NCBI GenBank assembly: GCA_947475245.1
Contig: CANJLW010000002.1
Location: 62,001-126,000 of the forward strand
Source of the DNA: Acetobacteraceae bacterium
GTDB lineage: Bacteria; Pseudomonadota; Alphaproteobacteria; Acetobacterales; Acetobacteraceae
Reading direction: 5' to 3'
Length of the DNA: 64,000 nt
Shown in pieces: positions 6,792 through 50,653 of the stretch; the stretch's first letter is position 1; each line of letters opens with the position of its first letter. The notes below the pieces were generated by a model that saw nothing but the letters and a program-made list of their open reading frames with translations, was not told where the DNA came from and did no database searches. Both the position numbers and the translations under genes were made by a program.

Positions 6792-7760
6792 ATGTACAGT
6801 CAGGCCCTCAATACCCGGGAAACCGACACTTCGACCGACGCGGATTCATCGCGGTTCCAGGCGCGTATTGATGCCGAGGAGCGGATCGAGCCGAACGATT
6901 GGATGCCGGACGCCTATCGTCGGACGCTGATCCGCCAAATCTCGCAGCACGCGCATTCCGAAATCGTCGGCATGCTGCCGGAGGGCAACTGGATCACGCG
7001 CGCGCCCAGCCTGCGGCGTAAGGCCGCGCTGCTTGCCAAGGTGCAGGATGAGGGCGGTCACGGACTCTATCTTTACGCCGCGGCGGAAACCTTGGGCGTC
7101 GCGCGCGAAGAGTTGGTGGACCAGCTTTTGTCCGGGCGGGCGAAATACAGTTCCATCTTCAATTACCCGACGCTGTCCTGGGCGGATATCGGTGCCATCG
7201 GCTGGTTGGTCGACGGCGCGGCGATCATGAACCAAATCCCGCTGTGTCGCTGTTCCTTCGGCCCCTACGCCCGCGCGATGATTCGTGTCTGCAAGGAGGA
7301 GTCCTTTCATCAGCGCCAGGGCTACGAAATCATGGTGACCCTTGCGGGGGGAACCGAAGAACAGAAGGCGATGGCGCAGGATGCGCTCGATCGTTGGTGG
7401 TGGCCCTGCCTGATGATGTTCGGCCCGCCGGATGGTGATTCCAGCCACTCCGACACCTCCATGCGGTGGAAGATCAAACGGTTTACCAACGACGCCCTGC
7501 GGCAGAAATTCGTCGACGCGACGGTGCCGCAAGGCCATCGTCTGGGGCTGAGTTTTCCCGATCCCGATCTGCGCTTCGACGAATCGACCGGGCATTGGCG
7601 GTTCGGCGCGATCGACTGGTCGGAATTCAAGCGTGTCCTGGCGGGTGACGGCCCGTGCAACCGTGAACGCCTGGCCGCGCGTCGCAGGGCGCACGCGGAG
7701 GGTGCCTGGGTGCGAGACGCCGCGCAGGCCTATGCCGCCAAACAGCGAAAGGTCGCCTGA
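6792..7760 (+). CDS. paaA: 1,2-phenylacetyl-CoA epoxidase subunit PaaA
   Basis: Characteristic PaaA sequence ([37 protein letters not shown]) followed by paaB, paaC and paaD. Confidence 0.95.
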
Positions 7761-7761
7761 C

Positions 7762-8037
7762 ATGATGCCGCTGTGGGAGGTTTTCATCCGATCGCGCAAC
7801 GGTCTGGCCCATAAGCATGTCGGTTCCGTGCATGCCGCCGATGCAACCATGGCGTTGCATGCCGCGCGCGATGTCTACACGCGGCGCGGGGAAGGCCTGT
7901 CGCTTTGGGTGGTTCCGTCCAATGCCATCGTAGCCTCGGACCCGGCGGATCGCGACGTGTTATTCGAACCGACCGCGTCGAAGATTTACCGCCATCCGAC
8001 GTTTTACGAGATCCCCGACGACGTCGGACACATGTAG
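7762..8037 (+). CDS. paaB: 1,2-phenylacetyl-CoA epoxidase subunit PaaB
   Basis: MMPLWEVFIRSRNGLAHKHVGSVHAADATMALHAARDVYTRRGEGLSLWVV; position between paaA and paaC. Confidence 0.95.
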   Translation: MMPLWEVFIRSRNGLAHKHVGSVHAADATMALHAARDVYTRRGEGLSLWVVPSNAIVASDPADRDVLFEPTASKIYRHPTFYEIPDDVGHM

Positions 8038-12382: not shown

Positions 12383-13975
12383 CTATTTGTCCAGCCAGAC
12401 ATCCTCCCACCGCCAGCCGTTATAGATGCTGTTCACCATCACGTCGTAGTTCTTCACATAGGAATGCCAGCAGCCGGCCTGTTGGCCGTGATAGGTGATC
12501 GGGCGCGCGACATCCTGCGCCAGTCGCCTTTCGATCTCCCACACCAACGCCTTCCGCTTGCCCTGATCGATCTCCTGCGACTGCTGGTCGATCATGCCCT
12601 GAATCTCGCGGTTGCAGTAATTCGTATAATTGCGCAACGAACCGCAGCCGAAAAATTCGTAGAATGCCTGGTCGGGATCGTCCAACGATGTACCTGTGGC
12701 GTTCATGCCGACGCTGAAGTCCTTCTTGAAGACGCGGTTGTAATAAATTGTCGTATCCGCGATATCCAGTTCCGCGTCGATGTAGATCTCCTTCAGGTGA
12801 TCCGCGAGGATCAGGGCAGGGTCCTTGAAGGTCGAAATGTCGCGCGTGAAAATCTTAACCTTCAACCGCTTATCCGGCCCAAATCCCGCCTTCCGCATCA
12901 GCGCTCGGCCCTCTTCCCGATTTTTCGCGACATCGGGGCCATAGCCGGGGAATGTTGCCAAAACGTCCGGCGGAACGCCCCATACCCCGTCGGGTGGCGG
13001 CAGCAGGACAGCGCCCGTGCCGGGAACGCCTTCGTTCATAATGTCGTTAAACGCCTTGTGGTCCAGCGTCAGCGCCAGCGCCATGCGAATGTCCGGGTTG
13101 TCGAACGGCGGCGCGTCGCGGTTCACGATCAGGTTGGAGTTGCCGATCATCCGCACCTTGCACTGCGCCGTCGGCGCCTGGGTCTGCATCTCCCGCGCCA
13201 GGGCCACGGTGGGATCGGTCGGGAATGTAACGTCGAACTTTCCCGCGACGAAGCCGAGATTGCGGGTCGCGCGGTTAGTGACGATTTTCACCTCTACCCC
13301 ATCGAGATAGGGCAGGCCGGGCTTCCAGTACTCCGCATTCCGTTCCAGCCGGATCACCTCATTCATCCGGTATTCGACGAACTTGAACGGCCCCGTGCCG
13401 ATCGGCTTTGTGCGCATCGTTCCCGACGGCACATGGCAGGGGTAAACCGGCGAATACCCGGAAGCGAGCATCGGCAGCAGCGAGGGCTGCGGCCGCTTCA
13501 AATGAAACGTGACCTCCCGATCGCCGTTGACGGTGATCTCGCGCAGATTGGCAAACCACTCCTGCCGCGGGCTTTTGCGAATTTTGCCCGGCGTCAGGCC
13601 CGAGACCATGTCCCACGTGCACTTGACGTCGGCGGAGCTGAACGGCTTGCCGTCGTGGAATTTCACTCCGTCCCGCAGCTTGAAGGTCAGCGCCAGATAA
13701 TCGGCGCTCCAGGACCAGCTCGTCGCCAGCTCCGGCACGATCGTGTCGACGCTGTTCTGCGGCTTGTGCTGATCGAAGATCACCAGATTGTTGAACAGCG
13801 ACATGAACGGCACCACAACCGAAACCGTCGCCTCCTCCTGGATGGACGGGCTGGGCGGGCTGTCGATCAATGGAAATGTCAGGATGCCGCCGCGCTTCTG
13901 CGCCAAAGTCGCGCCGGTCATCAGGAACAACATCGCAAGCGCGGATAGCGCGGCTCTCCAACCACTTCGTCTCAT
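12383..13975 (-). CDS. ABC transporter substrate-binding protein (peptide/opine family 5)
   Basis: Signal-peptide-like N-terminus; family 5 SBP features (LATSWSWSADYLALTFKLRDGVKFHDGKPFSSADVKCTWDM). Confidence 0.9.
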   Translation of the reverse strand: MRRSGWRAALSALAMLFLMTGATLAQKRGGILTFPLIDSPPSPSIQEEATVSVVVPFMSLFNNLVIFDQHKPQNSVDTIVPELATSWSWSADYLALTFKLRDGVKFHDGKPFSSADVKCTWDMVSGLTPGKIRKSPRQEWFANLREITVNGDREVTFHLKRPQPSLLPMLASGYSPVYPCHVPSGTMRTKPIGTGPFKFVEYRMNEVIRLERNAEYWKPGLPYLDGVEVKIVTNRATRNLGFVAGKFDVTFPTDPTVALAREMQTQAPTAQCKVRMIGNSNLIVNRDAPPFDNPDIRMALALTLDHKAFNDIMNEGVPGTGAVLLPPPDGVWGVPPDVLATFPGYGPDVAKNREEGRALMRKAGFGPDKRLKVKIFTRDISTFKDPALILADHLKEIYIDAELDIADTTIYYNRVFKKDFSVGMNATGTSLDDPDQAFYEFFGCGSLRNYTNYCNREIQGMIDQQSQEIDQGKRKALVWEIERRLAQDVARPITYHGQQAGCWHSYVKNYDVMVNSIYNGWRWEDVWLDK

Positions 13976-45541: not shown

Positions 45542-45787
45542 ATGCGTACCGTGAACATGCTTGAAGCAAAGTCGACCCTGTCGCGGTTGGTGGAGGCCGT
45601 GGAGAGCGGTTCGGAAACCGAGATTGTCATCGCACGCAACGGCCGTCCGGCAGCGCGCCTGATGCCGCTGAAAGCGGTATCGACCAGCAAGCGATTGGGC
45701 ATCGCCAAAGGGAAATTTGAGGCTCCCGATGACATCGACGCCCACAACGATCTGATCCTGGCGTTGTTTCACGGCGCCGAGGAATGA
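45542..45787 (+). CDS. Type II antitoxin, Phd/YefM family
   Basis: MRTVNMLEAKSTLSRLVEAVESGSETEIVIARNGRPAARLMPL; ATGA overlap with a downstream PIN-domain gene. Confidence 0.9.
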   Translation: MRTVNMLEAKSTLSRLVEAVESGSETEIVIARNGRPAARLMPLKAVSTSKRLGIAKGKFEAPDDIDAHNDLILALFHGAEE

Positions 45788-46179
45788 GGTTACTGCTCGA
45801 CACGCATATCGCGCTGTGGGCCGTCGCCGCCCCCGAAAAACTGTCCGCCGAGGCGCGTGATCTGATCGACGATGGTGCCAACCAAATCATCGTCAGCGCG
45901 GTCACGATCTGGGAAATCGGGATCAAGCGCGCCTTGGGTCGTCGCGGGCTGGGCGCGATGCCGATCGGGGCGGCGGATGCCTTGGCTTACTTCCGCGCCG
46001 CCGAGTTCGACATTCTCGACGTATCCGCCGCCCACGCCGTCGCGGTAGAAGCGCTGCCGCCGCTGCACGCCGATCCGTTCGACCGTATTCTGGTGGCCCA
46101 GGCACTGACCGAGCCGCTGCGACTGCTGACGCGCGACCCAAAGGTCGCCGCCTATAGCGATACAATCATCCTCGCCTGA
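45784..46179 (+). CDS. Type II toxin, VapC-like PIN-domain ribonuclease
   Basis: LLLDTHIALWAV; VSAVTIWEIGIKRALG; LPPLHADPFDRILVAQALTEPLRLLTRD (PIN acidic residues). Confidence 0.92.
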   Translation: MRLLLDTHIALWAVAAPEKLSAEARDLIDDGANQIIVSAVTIWEIGIKRALGRRGLGAMPIGAADALAYFRAAEFDILDVSAAHAVAVEALPPLHADPFDRILVAQALTEPLRLLTRDPKVAAYSDTIILA

Positions 46180-46217: not shown

Positions 46218-46247
46218 ATATGCCCAAACCATGGGAGTTTGGCATAT
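46218..46247. promoter_or_regulatory. Inverted repeat spanning the SDR translation start region
   Basis: ATATGCCCAAAC-catggga-GTTTGGCATAT: arms complementary except for one extra C. Confidence 0.6.
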
Positions 46248-46974
46248 GACAGGCCGGTTCAGCGGACGTACGGCGGTTGTTACGGGTGGCGCGGCGGGCA
46301 TCGGAGCGGGCATCGCGCAACGCCTGACCGCCGAAGGCGCGCGCGTCGCGTTGTGGGATCGTGACGAGGGAGCACTGGCGCGCTCCGGCGCGGCGCACAC
46401 AGTCGTGCTCGATGTCGCCGATTCCGCGGCCGTACATCGGGCGGCCGCCGACAGCGCCGCCGCACTGGGCAAGATCGACATCCTGGTCGCTTCCGCCGGC
46501 ATCACCGGTCCGAACCACACGGTGTGGGACTACCCGGTAGAAGCCTGGGACAAGGTAATCGACGTCAACCTCAAGGGCGTCTTTTACTGCAATCGCGCCG
46601 TTGTGCCGTTCATGCAGTCCAACGGCTACGGCCGCATCGTCAACATCGCCTCCATCGCCGGTAAGGAAGGCAACCCCAACGCCTCCGCCTATTCGGCGTC
46701 GAAGGCCGGCGTGATCGGCCTGACCAAGTCCCTCGGCAAGGAGTTGGCCGCGACCGAAATCCGCGTCAACTGCGTCACCCCCGCCGCTGTAAAGACCGCC
46801 ATCTTCGAACAGATGACGCAGCAGCAGATCGACTGGATGCTGTCGAAAATCCCCATCGGCCGCTTCGGCGGCATCGACGAAGTCACTTCCCTCGTGTGCT
46901 GGCTTGCCAGCGAGGAATGCAGTTTCTCGACCGGAGCCGTCTTCGATGTCTCCGGCGGGCGTGCCACATACTGA
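46246..46974 (+). CDS. SDR family NAD(P)-dependent oxidoreductase
   Basis: VTGGAAGIGAGIAQRL; NIASIAGKEGNPNASAYSASKAGVIGLTKSLGKEL (YxxxK). Start at 46246 or 46231. Confidence 0.92.
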   Translation: MTGRFSGRTAVVTGGAAGIGAGIAQRLTAEGARVALWDRDEGALARSGAAHTVVLDVADSAAVHRAAADSAAALGKIDILVASAGITGPNHTVWDYPVEAWDKVIDVNLKGVFYCNRAVVPFMQSNGYGRIVNIASIAGKEGNPNASAYSASKAGVIGLTKSLGKELAATEIRVNCVTPAAVKTAIFEQMTQQQIDWMLSKIPIGRFGGIDEVTSLVCWLASEECSFSTGAVFDVSGGRATY

Positions 46975-46989
46975 TCCGGAGAGCGAACG

Positions 46990-48399
46990 ATGGATTCCGA
47001 AACACTGGGATTTATGCCGGCGACCGAAGCCGCCGAGCTGATCCGCACCAAACGCCTGTCGCCGGTCGAATACATGCAGGCACTGCTCGATCGCATCGCG
47101 GCCAAGGAACCCCGCGTCAACGCCTTCGCCCATCTTGCGGCGGATCGGGCCATGGACGGCGCGCGCAAGGCGGAGGCCGCGCTGATGAGCGGCGCGCGCA
47201 TCGGCCGGTTGCACGGCATACCGGCGACGATCAAGGATCTCGCCTGGACCAAGGACATGCCGACGCAAAACGGCAGCCTGATCTTCAAGGGCAATCAGCC
47301 GACCGAGGACACCCCGGTCGTGCCGCGCCTGCAGGACGAAGGCGCGATCATTCTCGGCAAGACCACGACCTCGGAATTCGGGTGGACCGGCGTGTCGCAC
47401 AGCCCGCTGACCGGCATCACCCATAACCCCTGGAAGTTCGGCATGAACGCCGGCGCGTCCTCGGCCGGTGCCGGCGCGGCATCCGCCGCCGGGTTCGGCC
47501 CGCTGCACCAGGGCAGCGACGGCGCCGGCTCGATCCGCATGCCGTCGCATTTCTGCGGGGTCTTCGGGATCAAGCCGAGCTTCGGCCGCGTTCCCTATTA
47601 TCCGGTCGGCACCGGGGATCTGACCTCGCACATGGGGCCGATGACCCGCACCGTGGCCGACAGCGCGCTGATGCTGGAGGTTATGGCGGGACCGCACCCG
47701 CTGGATTACACAACACTGGAAGCCGGCCCGGCGCATTACCTCGCGCGCCTGCAGGAAGGCATCAAGGGCAAGCGGGTCGCCTTCAGCCCCGATCTCGGCC
47801 TCGCCCGCGTCGATCCGGATGTCGCCGCCCTGGTCCGCAAAGCAGCCGAACGCTTCACCGAGCTCGGCGCGATCGTCGAGGAGGTCAAAACACCCTGGGC
47901 CGCGCCCGGCCCGGAACTGATCCGCTTCTTCTGGTCCGCCCACATGACCCGGCTGAAGCCGCATCTGGCCAAGTGGGAAAGCCAGATGGATCCGGGCCTG
48001 GTTGCCTGCATCAAGGCGTCCGAAAACATCTCGGTCGCCGACTATCAGGCCGCCCGCGAGCGCAAGATGCCCTATATCGCCAACATCCATCGTTGGTTCG
48101 AGGATTGGGACTTCCTGCTCACCCCCTCGGCGTCCGTCGCCGCCTTCCCGGCGGAGAAGCTGATGCCCGATCATTGGCCATCGCACGACTGGGATTGGGT
48201 AAGCTGGGCGGAGTTCTCCTATCCGTTCAACATGTCCTGGAACCCGGCGGCCAGCGTCCCCTGCGGCTTTACCGCTGACGGATTGCCGGTGGGCCTGCAG
48301 ATCGTCGGCAAACGCTTCGACGATCTGGGTGTGCTGCAGGCGTCCGCCGCGTTCGAGCAGGCCCAGCCCTGGGCGCAAAAACGCCCCGTACTGACCTGA
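46990..48399 (+). CDS. Amidase (amidase signature family)
   Basis: GIPATIKDLAWTKDMPTQNGS; NAGASSAGAGAASAAGFGPLHQGSDGAGSIRMPSHFCGVFGIKPSFGRVP (Ser-Ser-Lys type signature). Confidence 0.93.
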   Translation: MDSETLGFMPATEAAELIRTKRLSPVEYMQALLDRIAAKEPRVNAFAHLAADRAMDGARKAEAALMSGARIGRLHGIPATIKDLAWTKDMPTQNGSLIFKGNQPTEDTPVVPRLQDEGAIILGKTTTSEFGWTGVSHSPLTGITHNPWKFGMNAGASSAGAGAASAAGFGPLHQGSDGAGSIRMPSHFCGVFGIKPSFGRVPYYPVGTGDLTSHMGPMTRTVADSALMLEVMAGPHPLDYTTLEAGPAHYLARLQEGIKGKRVAFSPDLGLARVDPDVAALVRKAAERFTELGAIVEEVKTPWAAPGPELIRFFWSAHMTRLKPHLAKWESQMDPGLVACIKASENISVADYQAARERKMPYIANIHRWFEDWDFLLTPSASVAAFPAEKLMPDHWPSHDWDWVSWAEFSYPFNMSWNPAASVPCGFTADGLPVGLQIVGKRFDDLGVLQASAAFEQAQPWAQKRPVLT

Positions 48400-48404
48400 C
48401 GGGA

Positions 48405-49262
48405 TTGACGTCCCGCGACCTGCTCGCGCTGAACGACCTGCCGGCCGCCACGATCCAGCGTATCCTCGAACGCGCGCAGGATCTGGCGCTGGCCTGGGCG
48501 GAACGCCGTATGCCGAACAGCCTGGAGGGCCGACGTGTTGCGCTGATCGTCAACGATGACGGTTGGCGCAACACCACCGCGTTCGACCTCGGGATCTCCG
48601 CGATGGGCGGGACCTGCGTGCACGCGCCGATGCGGCTGGATCGGCGGGAGGATGTTCCCGATCTCGCCGCCTACCTCGATAACTGGTTCGATGCGATCGT
48701 CAGTCGCACGCCGGAGCTCGCGAGCCTGCGGGCGCTGGCGGATGCGGCCCGCGCACCGGTCGTCAATGCTCGAACGAAGCAAAACCACCCATGCGAGGTC
48801 CTGGGCGATTTGGCATTCCATCGGCACCGCGGGGCCGCAAGGGACGATATCGTGGTGGCCGTGGTCGCGCCCGCCGCGAACATCCTGGGGTCATGGATCG
48901 AAGCCGCCGCGGGGCTGCCCTTGCGCGTCGTGCAGATTTACCCCGAACCTTGGCATGCCGAGGTTGGAACGCGGTTTCACGCCGTATCGGATATGCGTGC
49001 CCTGGCCGAGGCCGACGTGATCGTCACCGATTGCTGGCCGTCAGACGCCGGTCCCGAAGTCTTACTGCCCTACCAGATCACCGCAGCGGTGCTCGATCGG
49101 CTGCGTCCCAACGTCGCCTTTCTGCCATGCCCGCCGGTCCGGCGCGGGCAGGAAGTCTCCGCCGACGCCATGCTGCATCCGGCATGTCGGGTCATCGAGG
49201 CAAAGGCGTTCCTGTTGCACGCGCAAAATGCGGCGTTGGAATGGGTATTCGGGCGACTGTAA
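48405..49262 (+). CDS. Aspartate/ornithine carbamoyltransferase superfamily protein with degenerate carbamoyl-phosphate site
   Basis: TTG start; AF-DLGISAMGG, HPCEVLGDL, VTDCWPSDAG and FLPCPPVRRGQEV align by eye with OTCase landmarks. The STRTR position reads GWRNT. Confidence 0.75.
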   Translation: MTSRDLLALNDLPAATIQRILERAQDLALAWAERRMPNSLEGRRVALIVNDDGWRNTTAFDLGISAMGGTCVHAPMRLDRREDVPDLAAYLDNWFDAIVSRTPELASLRALADAARAPVVNARTKQNHPCEVLGDLAFHRHRGAARDDIVVAVVAPAANILGSWIEAAAGLPLRVVQIYPEPWHAEVGTRFHAVSDMRALAEADVIVTDCWPSDAGPEVLLPYQITAAVLDRLRPNVAFLPCPPVRRGQEVSADAMLHPACRVIEAKAFLLHAQNAALEWVFGRL

Positions 49263-49334
49263 CCGCCGTCTGCTTGTCGCGCCCCGTCCGATCCTTCACT
49301 CTCCGCGAACGTCCACCGCAAAAAGGATCGTCCG

Positions 49335-49844
49335 ATGGCTTTCTCCATGTACACCGCATCCGTGCCGATTTGCGCGCAGCAGCTCGCCGCGCTGTCCAAC
49401 ATCATCGACAAGGCCGCCGCGCATTGTGCCGCCAAGAAGATCGACGAGGCCGCGCTGCTCTCCGACCGCCTCTACCCCGACATGTTCCCCCTCGCTCGGC
49501 AAATTCGGCAGGCGACCGATTTCGGCCGCAACACGCCGGGTCGCCTTGCCGGCGCGACGCAGCCGGAATTCGCCGCGGTCGACGACACCAGCTTCGCCGC
49601 CGCGAAGGACCGGACCGAACGCTCCCTCGCTTTCGTCAAATCCCTGACGCCGGCGCAGATCGAGGGAACGGAAGACAAGGATATCGTCTGGATGGCCGGC
49701 ACCAACCAACGGTCAATGAAGGGGCAGGCGTACCTGTTGCACTTCGGTCTGACGAACTTCTTCTTCCACGTCACCACAGCCTATAACATCCTGCGCCATC
49801 GCGGGGTGGAGATCGGCAAGCGCGACTTCCTCGGCCCGCTGTAA
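49335..49844 (+). CDS. DUF1993 domain-containing protein
   Basis: SMYTASVPICAQQLAALSNIIDKAAAHCAAKKIDEAALLSDRLYPDMFPLARQIRQATDF; FFFHVTTAYNILRHRGVEIGKRDFLG. Confidence 0.85.
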   Translation: MAFSMYTASVPICAQQLAALSNIIDKAAAHCAAKKIDEAALLSDRLYPDMFPLARQIRQATDFGRNTPGRLAGATQPEFAAVDDTSFAAAKDRTERSLAFVKSLTPAQIEGTEDKDIVWMAGTNQRSMKGQAYLLHFGLTNFFFHVTTAYNILRHRGVEIGKRDFLGPL

Positions 49845-49856
49845 CGGCCGCGATCC

Positions 49857-50522
49857 ATGGAAGAAGCAGCGCGGGCTTTTCTGCTTGGCTTTCCCGCGCT
49901 GTTTTCCATCGTTAACCCGATCAGCGGTGCCTTCATCTTTCGGGAGGTGACCGCCGGCCGAACCGCCGAAGATCGCGCGACCCTGGCGCGATTGGTCGCA
50001 GGCTACTCGCTGATCGTGATGGTGGTCGCGCTTTGGGCCGGATCCTTTGTGTTGTCTTTCTTCGGCATCACCCTGGCCGCCTTGCGTGTCGCCGGCGGGC
50101 TGGTCGTCGCGCTCAGTGCCTGGGATCTACTCAATTCCCCCGAACGGCGAGAGAACCGCCGCCACGAACAAGGCGTTACCCTACCCGGCGCGACGGATGT
50201 GGCGCTGTTTCCGTTGACCATCCCCTTCACCACCGGACCCGGCACGATTTCGGTCGCCGTCGCCCTGGGGGCCGGGCAGGCCAGGGCGTTCAATCTTTGG
50301 TATTTCGTCGGCATGACGGCCGCCGCGGCGGCCTTGGCGGTCGCCATCTGGATCGCCTATCGCTCCGCCGATCGCATCGCGAGCCTGATGGGCTCCACCG
50401 GCACCCGAACGGTTTCCCGCCTCGCCGCATTCATCCTGCTGTGCATCGGCGTGCAAATCCTGATCGTCGGGGTGCAGGATGTGCTGGGCCCGCTGCTGCA
50501 TCCGACGCCCCCCGCCGGCTAA
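49857..50522 (+). CDS. MarC family integral membrane protein
   Basis: Multi-TM protein; FPALFSIVNPISGAFIFREVT; VALFPLTIPFTTGPGTISVAVALG. Confidence 0.9.
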   Translation: MEEAARAFLLGFPALFSIVNPISGAFIFREVTAGRTAEDRATLARLVAGYSLIVMVVALWAGSFVLSFFGITLAALRVAGGLVVALSAWDLLNSPERRENRRHEQGVTLPGATDVALFPLTIPFTTGPGTISVAVALGAGQARAFNLWYFVGMTAAAAALAVAIWIAYRSADRIASLMGSTGTRTVSRLAAFILLCIGVQILIVGVQDVLGPLLHPTPPAG

Positions 50523-50653
50523 GCGTGTCGATTTCGATGATTTCCCGCATTCCGCCTGGCGAACCCCGCTTGGCGCGACATCGTTGACCTTGCTACACTC
50601 CGCGCCCGCCTGATCGGTCTCGACACCGGATTCGGCTTGAAGGATGACGCACG

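Follow-up and report, generated by a model that had tools for sequence, protein, structure and literature searches.

The window analysed here, a stretch of 64,000 nucleotides from an Acetobacteraceae bacterium, carries an open reading frame that specifies a 285 aa OTCase-like protein and, as the first-pass annotation had stated, begins with a TTG codon 5 nt past the stop codon of an amidase gene (48397-48399). The gene order at this locus is SDR, amidase, OTCase-like gene, DUF1993, a MarC-like membrane protein and dnaN (Table 1). The peptides DLGISAMGG, HPCE, VTDCWPSDAG and PCPPVRRGQEVS, which had been read as landmarks of OTCases, were all found in the product.

Table 1. Genes at the locus and active-site features of the OTCase-like protein (window positions; OTCase residues in ArgI numbering).
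Feature	Position	Strand	Remarks
SDR oxidoreductase gene	46231-46974	+	Upstream of amidase, as it also is in several relatives without the OTCase-like gene
Amidase gene (PF01425)	46990-48399	+	5 nt upstream of the OTCase-like gene; conserved in the genus, without functional link in other carriers
OTCase-like 'GWRN' subfamily protein, 285 aa	48405-49262	+	TTG start; both Pfam domains; clade support 100/99
D51 for OTCase Lys53 (ornithine carboxylate contact via water)	48555-48557	+	ArgI alignment
GWRNT for STRTR	48561-48575	+	ArgI alignment; R55 at the R57 position
R101, equivalent to conserved R106 of strand beta-4	48705-48707	+	Invariant
HPCE for HPxQ; H128 retained (H133), Q136 replaced by E131	48786-48797	+	E in 89/89 rows
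N159, equivalent to N167 (amino acid substrate)	48879-48881	+	Invariant
TDCWP; D209 equivalent to D231 of OTCase	49026-49040	+	D invariant; downstream SMG loop shorter and altered
PCPP for HCLP; H272 replaced by P241, L274 by P243, C273 retained as C242	49125-49136	+	Alignment
K267 (new invariant Lys) to L270 (for OTCase R319)	49203-49214	+	Alignment
DUF1993 gene	49335-49844	+	Downstream; in the variable interval between amidase and dnaN

Both Pfam domains of the transcarbamylase superfamily were recognised in the product, OTCace_N at 85.1 bits (cut-off 29.9) and OTCace at 48.7 bits (cut-off 29.4), which indicates similarity far beyond chance. The AlphaFold model is confident (mean pLDDT 94.7) and Foldseek aligned it to solved OTCases with TM-scores of up to 0.94 (1A1S, the P. 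furiosus OTCase; probability 1.00), the best structural matches being unknotted OTCases. By Pfam and Foldseek the two-domain architecture is present at full length, and the product is a full-length OTCase-fold protein without STRTR, in keeping with the carbamoyltransferase fold that had been proposed for it; the tree described below places it outside canonical ArgF. The protein scored far under the cut-offs of all curated NCBIfam models for OTCase, ATCase, PTCase and AOTCase, reaching 121.1 bits with TIGR00658 (OTCase; cut-off 280.85), 156.8 bits with NF001986 (OTCase; cut-off 306) and 80 bits with TIGR04384 (putrescine carbamoyltransferase; cut-off 500); 42 aligned clade members matched the same model set, with the cut-offs being applied to the window protein only. 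The same genome encodes a canonical argF (C6:116616-117506) and an ATCase (pyrB, C8:20535), and a spare OTCase is therefore not needed.

The register of the active site was established by aligning the protein with OTCases, including E. coli ArgI, and with ATCases, and inferences on pocket geometry were drawn from this alignment. S55-T56-R57-T58-R59 of ArgI correspond to G53-W54-R55-N56-T57 of the window protein, whose loop is thus devoid of the Ser and both Thr while retaining the central Arg, and no intact SxRTR was found elsewhere in the 285 aa. The loss of STRTR reported in the first-pass annotation is confirmed, although the string D-G-W-R-N-T-T, by which it was represented there, hides the retained arginine. 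This residue matters since in putrescine carbamoyltransferase its replacement (R54G) left no activity in an assay able to detect 1/1000 of the wild-type level (PMC3282769). In place of the SxRT of the transcarbamylase family, GWRN is present in the window protein and in all 25 diverse members aligned with ArgI, as well as in 88 of 89 family rows (the exception being a truncated copy, L029), while Asp occupies the Lys53 position in 20 of the 25 members and 84 of the 89 rows. The family motifs HPxQ and HxLP are likewise replaced, by HPCE and PCPP, respectively, and the OTCase DxxxSMG loop reads TDCWPSDAG, in which the Asp is kept and SMG is absent; the family arginine of strand beta-4 is present. 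R319, a carbamoyl phosphate contact, is replaced by leucine, a change that was absent from the first-pass annotation. Across the clade, S55G, T56W, T58N, Q136E, H272P, L274P and R319L are nearly invariant and K53D is usual, and the equivalents of R57, R106, H133, N167 and D231 are retained.

In complexes of Arabidopsis OTCase the SMRT motif holds the phosphate, the carbamoyl group is held by a His, a Gln, a late Arg (R319 in E. coli), a Thr hydroxyl and two main-chain carbonyls, a beta-strand Arg touches both phosphate and carbamoyl, and the ornithine alpha-amine is held by Asn, Asp and Ser (PMC10765591). By the contact roles given there and in Table 1 of PMC4581275, neither half of the donor site has escaped change, whereas part of the anchor that would hold an amino-acid-like substrate is retained. 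Invariant positions among about 90 sequences cluster in the active-site motifs: G53, W94, D96, R101, N121, R123, T124, N127, H128, P129, E131, L133-L136, N159, I160, S163, W164, E166, Q177, D209 and L230 never vary in 89 rows, and W54, R55 and N56 vary in one truncated copy only. The new active-site residues W54, N56, E131, K267 and N275 are as invariant as the equivalents of R57, R106 and H133. When K, R, D and E were summed over the 16 columns that contact substrates in OTCase, the mean pocket charge was −0.9 in 25 GWRN proteins versus +2.8 in 18 OTCases. This shift is the strongest argument that the sequences provide, and it suggests that a doubly charged small phosphate and zwitterionic ornithine would no longer be the preferred pair; one charge might be regained through the invariant K267, which lies a single helix turn ahead of the missing R319.

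GWRN proteins share with ArgF/ArgI (TIGR00658; 4F2G, 1A1S, 4OH7) the two-domain fold, about 30–36% identity and the R57, R106, H133, N167, D231 and C273 positions, but they lack SxRT, HPxQ, HxLP, SMG and R319 and form a separate clade. Putrescine carbamoyltransferase (TIGR04384) is comparable in being an unknotted OTCase branch with K53 replaced and the SMG loop changed, yet PTCases keep STRT and HCLP and possess a C-terminal helix; their combination of STRT, a (Y/W)(G/W)(V/L/I)x loop and a C-terminal helix extension (PMC3282769) is not seen in the window protein. The proline-rich loop and extended 120's loop of the knotted AOTCase, SOTCase and YTCase are also missing from this short-looped protein of 285 aa, as is the RxQxER of the ATCase 240's loop. 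The phaseolotoxin-resistant ArgK (ROCT) is likewise an accessory OTCase-like protein from a bacterium associated with plants; its carbamoyl phosphate loop, too, is altered, and it functions with SGRTS in place of STRTR (PMC3202874). In contrast to the GWRN clade, in which neither the HCLP nor the SMG motif is intact and no conserved cluster is present, ArgK keeps HCLP, SMG and its other substrate contacts (PMC10765591), including those to ornithine, makes citrulline and is tied to a toxin cluster.

Relatives with the same protein type were found by a plasmid search and a scan of genome contigs, the latter yielding 133 confirmed relatives of which the best 80 were analysed. More than 80 genomes carry the GWRN clade, including those of Rhizobium, Bradyrhizobium, Agrobacterium, Neorhizobium, Burkholderia, Variovorax, Acetobacterales, Pantoea, Pseudomonas, Roseomonas, Acetobacteraceae and others, with Hyphomicrobiales accounting for 64 of the best 80 of the 133 relatives. 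In a tree employing ATCases as outgroup, 25 GWRN sequences formed one clade (bootstrap/SH-aLRT 100/99) that sided with the OTCases at their split from ATCases, though outside canonical ArgF, and in another tree all 37 GWRN sequences (37/37) grouped together, apart from canonical OTCases; on sequence grounds, the GWRN proteins are a clade and not a one-off. In the second of these trees the Bradyrhizobium sequences fall into two groups that lie far apart, and one group also contains Burkholderia and Variovorax, a pattern suggestive of horizontal transfer. A plasmid protein of Frondihabitans sp. PAMC 28766 (L030, WP_066284594.1) is sister to the clade (100/99) on a long branch and is about 38–40% identical to the nearest GWRN members over the region matched. 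It resembles the clade in having HPCE, PCPP, L at R319, K at 267 and W at 94, but its loop still reads SSSLRTR, so that the loop would have changed last if this placement is right. With L030 as query, 399 Pseudomonadota genomes returned GWRN members and weaker matches that scored like canonical OTCases. A search of open-licence papers found no description of the GWRN clade. A significant number of bacterial sequences without the essential motifs, occurring in genomes with many transcarbamylase copies and with function unknown, has been reported, and these may be novel transcarbamylases (PMC4581275); the existence of motif-less transcarbamylase-like sequences is thus already known, while nothing appears to have been reported on a delimited clade of this kind, on the replacements invariant within it or on how it is distributed.

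The gene is under purifying selection, dN/dS being 0.08–0.35 between the pairs of related members compared and 0.09–0.23 between the window gene and its nearest relatives, for which synonymous sites are near saturation. Within the genus of the window genome it was present in one of 33 genomes, the others holding at best the usual OTCase and ATCase. It was found in 36 of 249 Bradyrhizobium genomes (the genus being assigned because its sequences matched loci of named Bradyrhizobium in the second tree), in 4 of 249 genomes in the family of G451 and in about 1% of the class (5/385) and phylum (5/399) samples. The gene is patchily distributed, mainly among soil- and plant-associated bacteria, and is most likely a horizontally spread accessory gene. 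A phage origin was rejected, as no close phage matches were obtained and those found were of canonical type only, at 25–29% identity.

The amidase-dnaN interval (48400-50650) is a site of gene turnover, where genomes of the genus differ in whether, and in which order, they have the MarC-like and DUF1993 genes, and it holds the OTCase-like gene in the window genome only. In relatives, the gene next after the same SDR and amidase (80–90% identical protein) is the MarC-like or DUF1993 one, with dnaN beyond it, which indicates that the OTCase-like gene was inserted into this variable interval. Its base composition resembles that of its surroundings, so that its arrival was not very recent or the donor genome was similar. 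A PIN-domain (VapC-like) gene is located just upstream of the SDR gene (45784-46179). In other carriers the neighbours include FosA, MAPEG, CTP synthase, phosphoglucose isomerase, GMC oxidoreductase and transposase genes, and no neighbour conserved across genera that might provide a substrate clue was found among the carriers examined. A MAPEG gene precedes the OTCase-like gene within Bradyrhizobium, and phosphoglucose isomerase or CTP synthase does so in Agrobacterium relatives, but this recurrence looks like shared synteny only. In the window genome and several others the gene lies directly behind another gene, a position that makes reliance on read-through from host promoters probable. Physical co-transcription with the amidase is likely in the window genome, as had been suggested at first pass, while the idea that amidase, SDR and OTCase-like gene constitute a functional unit is not supported.

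Across the clade the residues that bind carbamoyl phosphate have almost all been exchanged, each in the same way, in a gene under strong selection, and for this reason the reaction of the GWRN clade probably differs from that of its relatives. With moderate confidence we propose that the protein is an accessory transcarbamylase-superfamily enzyme, catalytically active and acting on its own, in which a rebuilt donor pocket no longer serves the reaction of carbamoyl phosphate with ornithine; it is in this sense that we infer, for the window protein, enzyme status, non-use of carbamoyl phosphate and the kind of substrate. The first-pass annotation had likewise considered standard use of carbamoyl phosphate improbable, and such use does appear doubtful given the thorough, clade-consistent rebuilding of the donor site. 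The scaffold would be kept together with R57, R106 and H133 as carbonyl and phosphate contacts and N167 and D231 to hold the amino acid substrate, whereas the phosphate-holding hydroxyls (S55G, T56W, T58N) and two carbamoyl contacts (Q136E, R319L) would be lost or replaced and Lys53 usually exchanged for Asp, turning a strongly positive site into a slightly negative one. In the mechanism that we consider most likely, the enzyme would act on an amino-acid-like substrate by transferring a carbamoyl-like or amidino-like group, by reversing such a transfer or by cleaving the group, and the partner replacing carbamoyl phosphate would be bulkier and less anionic or partly cationic, with W54 and the new K267 lining its site. 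Horizontal spread among soil- and plant-associated Proteobacteria would fit an enzyme that uses or detoxifies some nitrogen compound of the environment. Our guess at the substrate, a more cationic partner in view of the more negative pocket and a soil or root compound in view of the carriers, extends to the detoxification of canaline or canavanine, which was considered because of the rhizosphere bias of the carriers; a literature search on this point turned up just one general review.

Certain features nonetheless speak against a change of donor: the retained R57, R106, H133 and N-terminus of the phosphate-binding helix could permit binding of some acyl phosphate, E131 can accept a hydrogen bond from the carbamoyl NH2 as Gln does, K267 might substitute for the charge of R319 and, by analogy, ArgK functions with an SGRTS loop (PMC3202874). 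On these grounds the protein may still be a carbamoyl phosphate-dependent transcarbamylase acting on a new amine through an altered but working loop, and in the rhizosphere it possibly withstands an inhibitor or serves detoxification. The retention of the R57, R106, H133, N167 and D231 equivalents, the precedent of a loop that tolerates change in an enzyme that can serve self-protection (PMC3202874, PMC10765591) and the accessory, mobile nature of the gene in mainly plant- and soil-associated carriers agree with this explanation. The changes far exceed those of ArgK, however, since S55, T56, T58, Q136, L274 and R319 are all replaced, and usually K53, and the pocket charge changes sign, so we consider continued dependence on carbamoyl phosphate unlikely, though still the leading alternative to the donor change. 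A non-catalytic descendant, serving to bind a small ligand or to cap or regulate the trimer of another carbamoyltransferase, would account for the loss of most donor contacts and for the lack of a conserved metabolic operon, but it would not be expected to hold the equivalents of R57, R106 and H133 invariant, nor to fix W54, N56, E131, K267 and N275 equally firmly, as a new active site would. Binding without catalysis, which the first-pass annotation had offered as one option, is therefore possible but quite improbable, all the more as the N167 and D231 equivalents are also invariant.

The proposed small nitrogen or amide pathway comprising the upstream amidase and SDR relied on the 5 nt spacing and common strand in the window genome. 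As the amidase occurs in 33 of 33 genomes of the genus and the OTCase-like gene in one, with MarC or DUF1993 directly following the amidase in relatives and unrelated neighbours such as FosA, MAPEG, CTP synthase, phosphoglucose isomerase, GMC oxidoreductase and transposase genes elsewhere, this operon logic was rejected and the partnership is very improbable. Decay of an argF copy, be it as a pseudogene or an annotation accident, is rendered conceivable by the dispensability of the gene for arginine synthesis and by the existence of single decayed copies (the truncated L029 and the L109 match with a stop codon). Dozens of species have the reading frame intact, dN/dS values are well below 1 and the replacements are near-identical throughout, which led us to reject this for the clade, and it is extremely improbable for the window gene.

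A bolder form of the rebuilt donor pocket proposal, which we put forward tentatively and regard as somewhat improbable, is that, within the carbamoyltransferase fold, the GWRN clade was the first to give up carbamoyl phosphate, transferring or cleaving a different group at a donor site of opposite charge, for example an amidino or ureido group carried by some cationic derivative of an amino acid that occurs in soil and on roots. Binding of carbamoyl phosphate by SxRT, HPxQ and HxLP is assumed to be what all members of a universal enzyme family have in common, and the clade would, if this is true, constitute a clear case of donor switching in which scaffold and catalytic arginines are kept and the donor pocket is rebuilt. 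The clade would then also be a defined target for finding a new reaction. Databases label such genes 'ornithine carbamoyltransferase', which, if the donor site has been rebuilt, is a misannotation to be corrected in many rhizobial genomes.

Several further copies were observed among the relatives. The Ti plasmid of Rhizobium sp. L51/94 (L029, 8001-8609) carries the 5'-truncated copy amid recombinase and IS genes, while in Rhizobium dioscoreae (L109, 8001-8852) the family match has one in-frame stop codon, possibly reflecting decay or a sequencing error. On pPAT9B01 of Pantoea sp. At-9b (L027) the OTCase-like gene is flanked by two copies of a YmjA-DUF2058 segment (7073-7910 and 12637-13474) whose protein accessions are identical. 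Part of the OTCase-like sequence is found again further on (record 182182-182706, hypothetical protein), so that the arrangement is a duplication in which one copy is truncated. Another complete GWRN member, on Pantoea pPAT9B05, adjoins an IS66 element. On the megaplasmid pSCL4 of Streptomyces clavuligerus (L150, 6001-6807) an OTCase-like protein exhibits STRTR, HPTQ, TRWQTTG and HDLP, a motif set of the type described for 2,3-diaminopropionate transcarbamylase (PMC4581275), and by these motifs it is likely a DPTCase.
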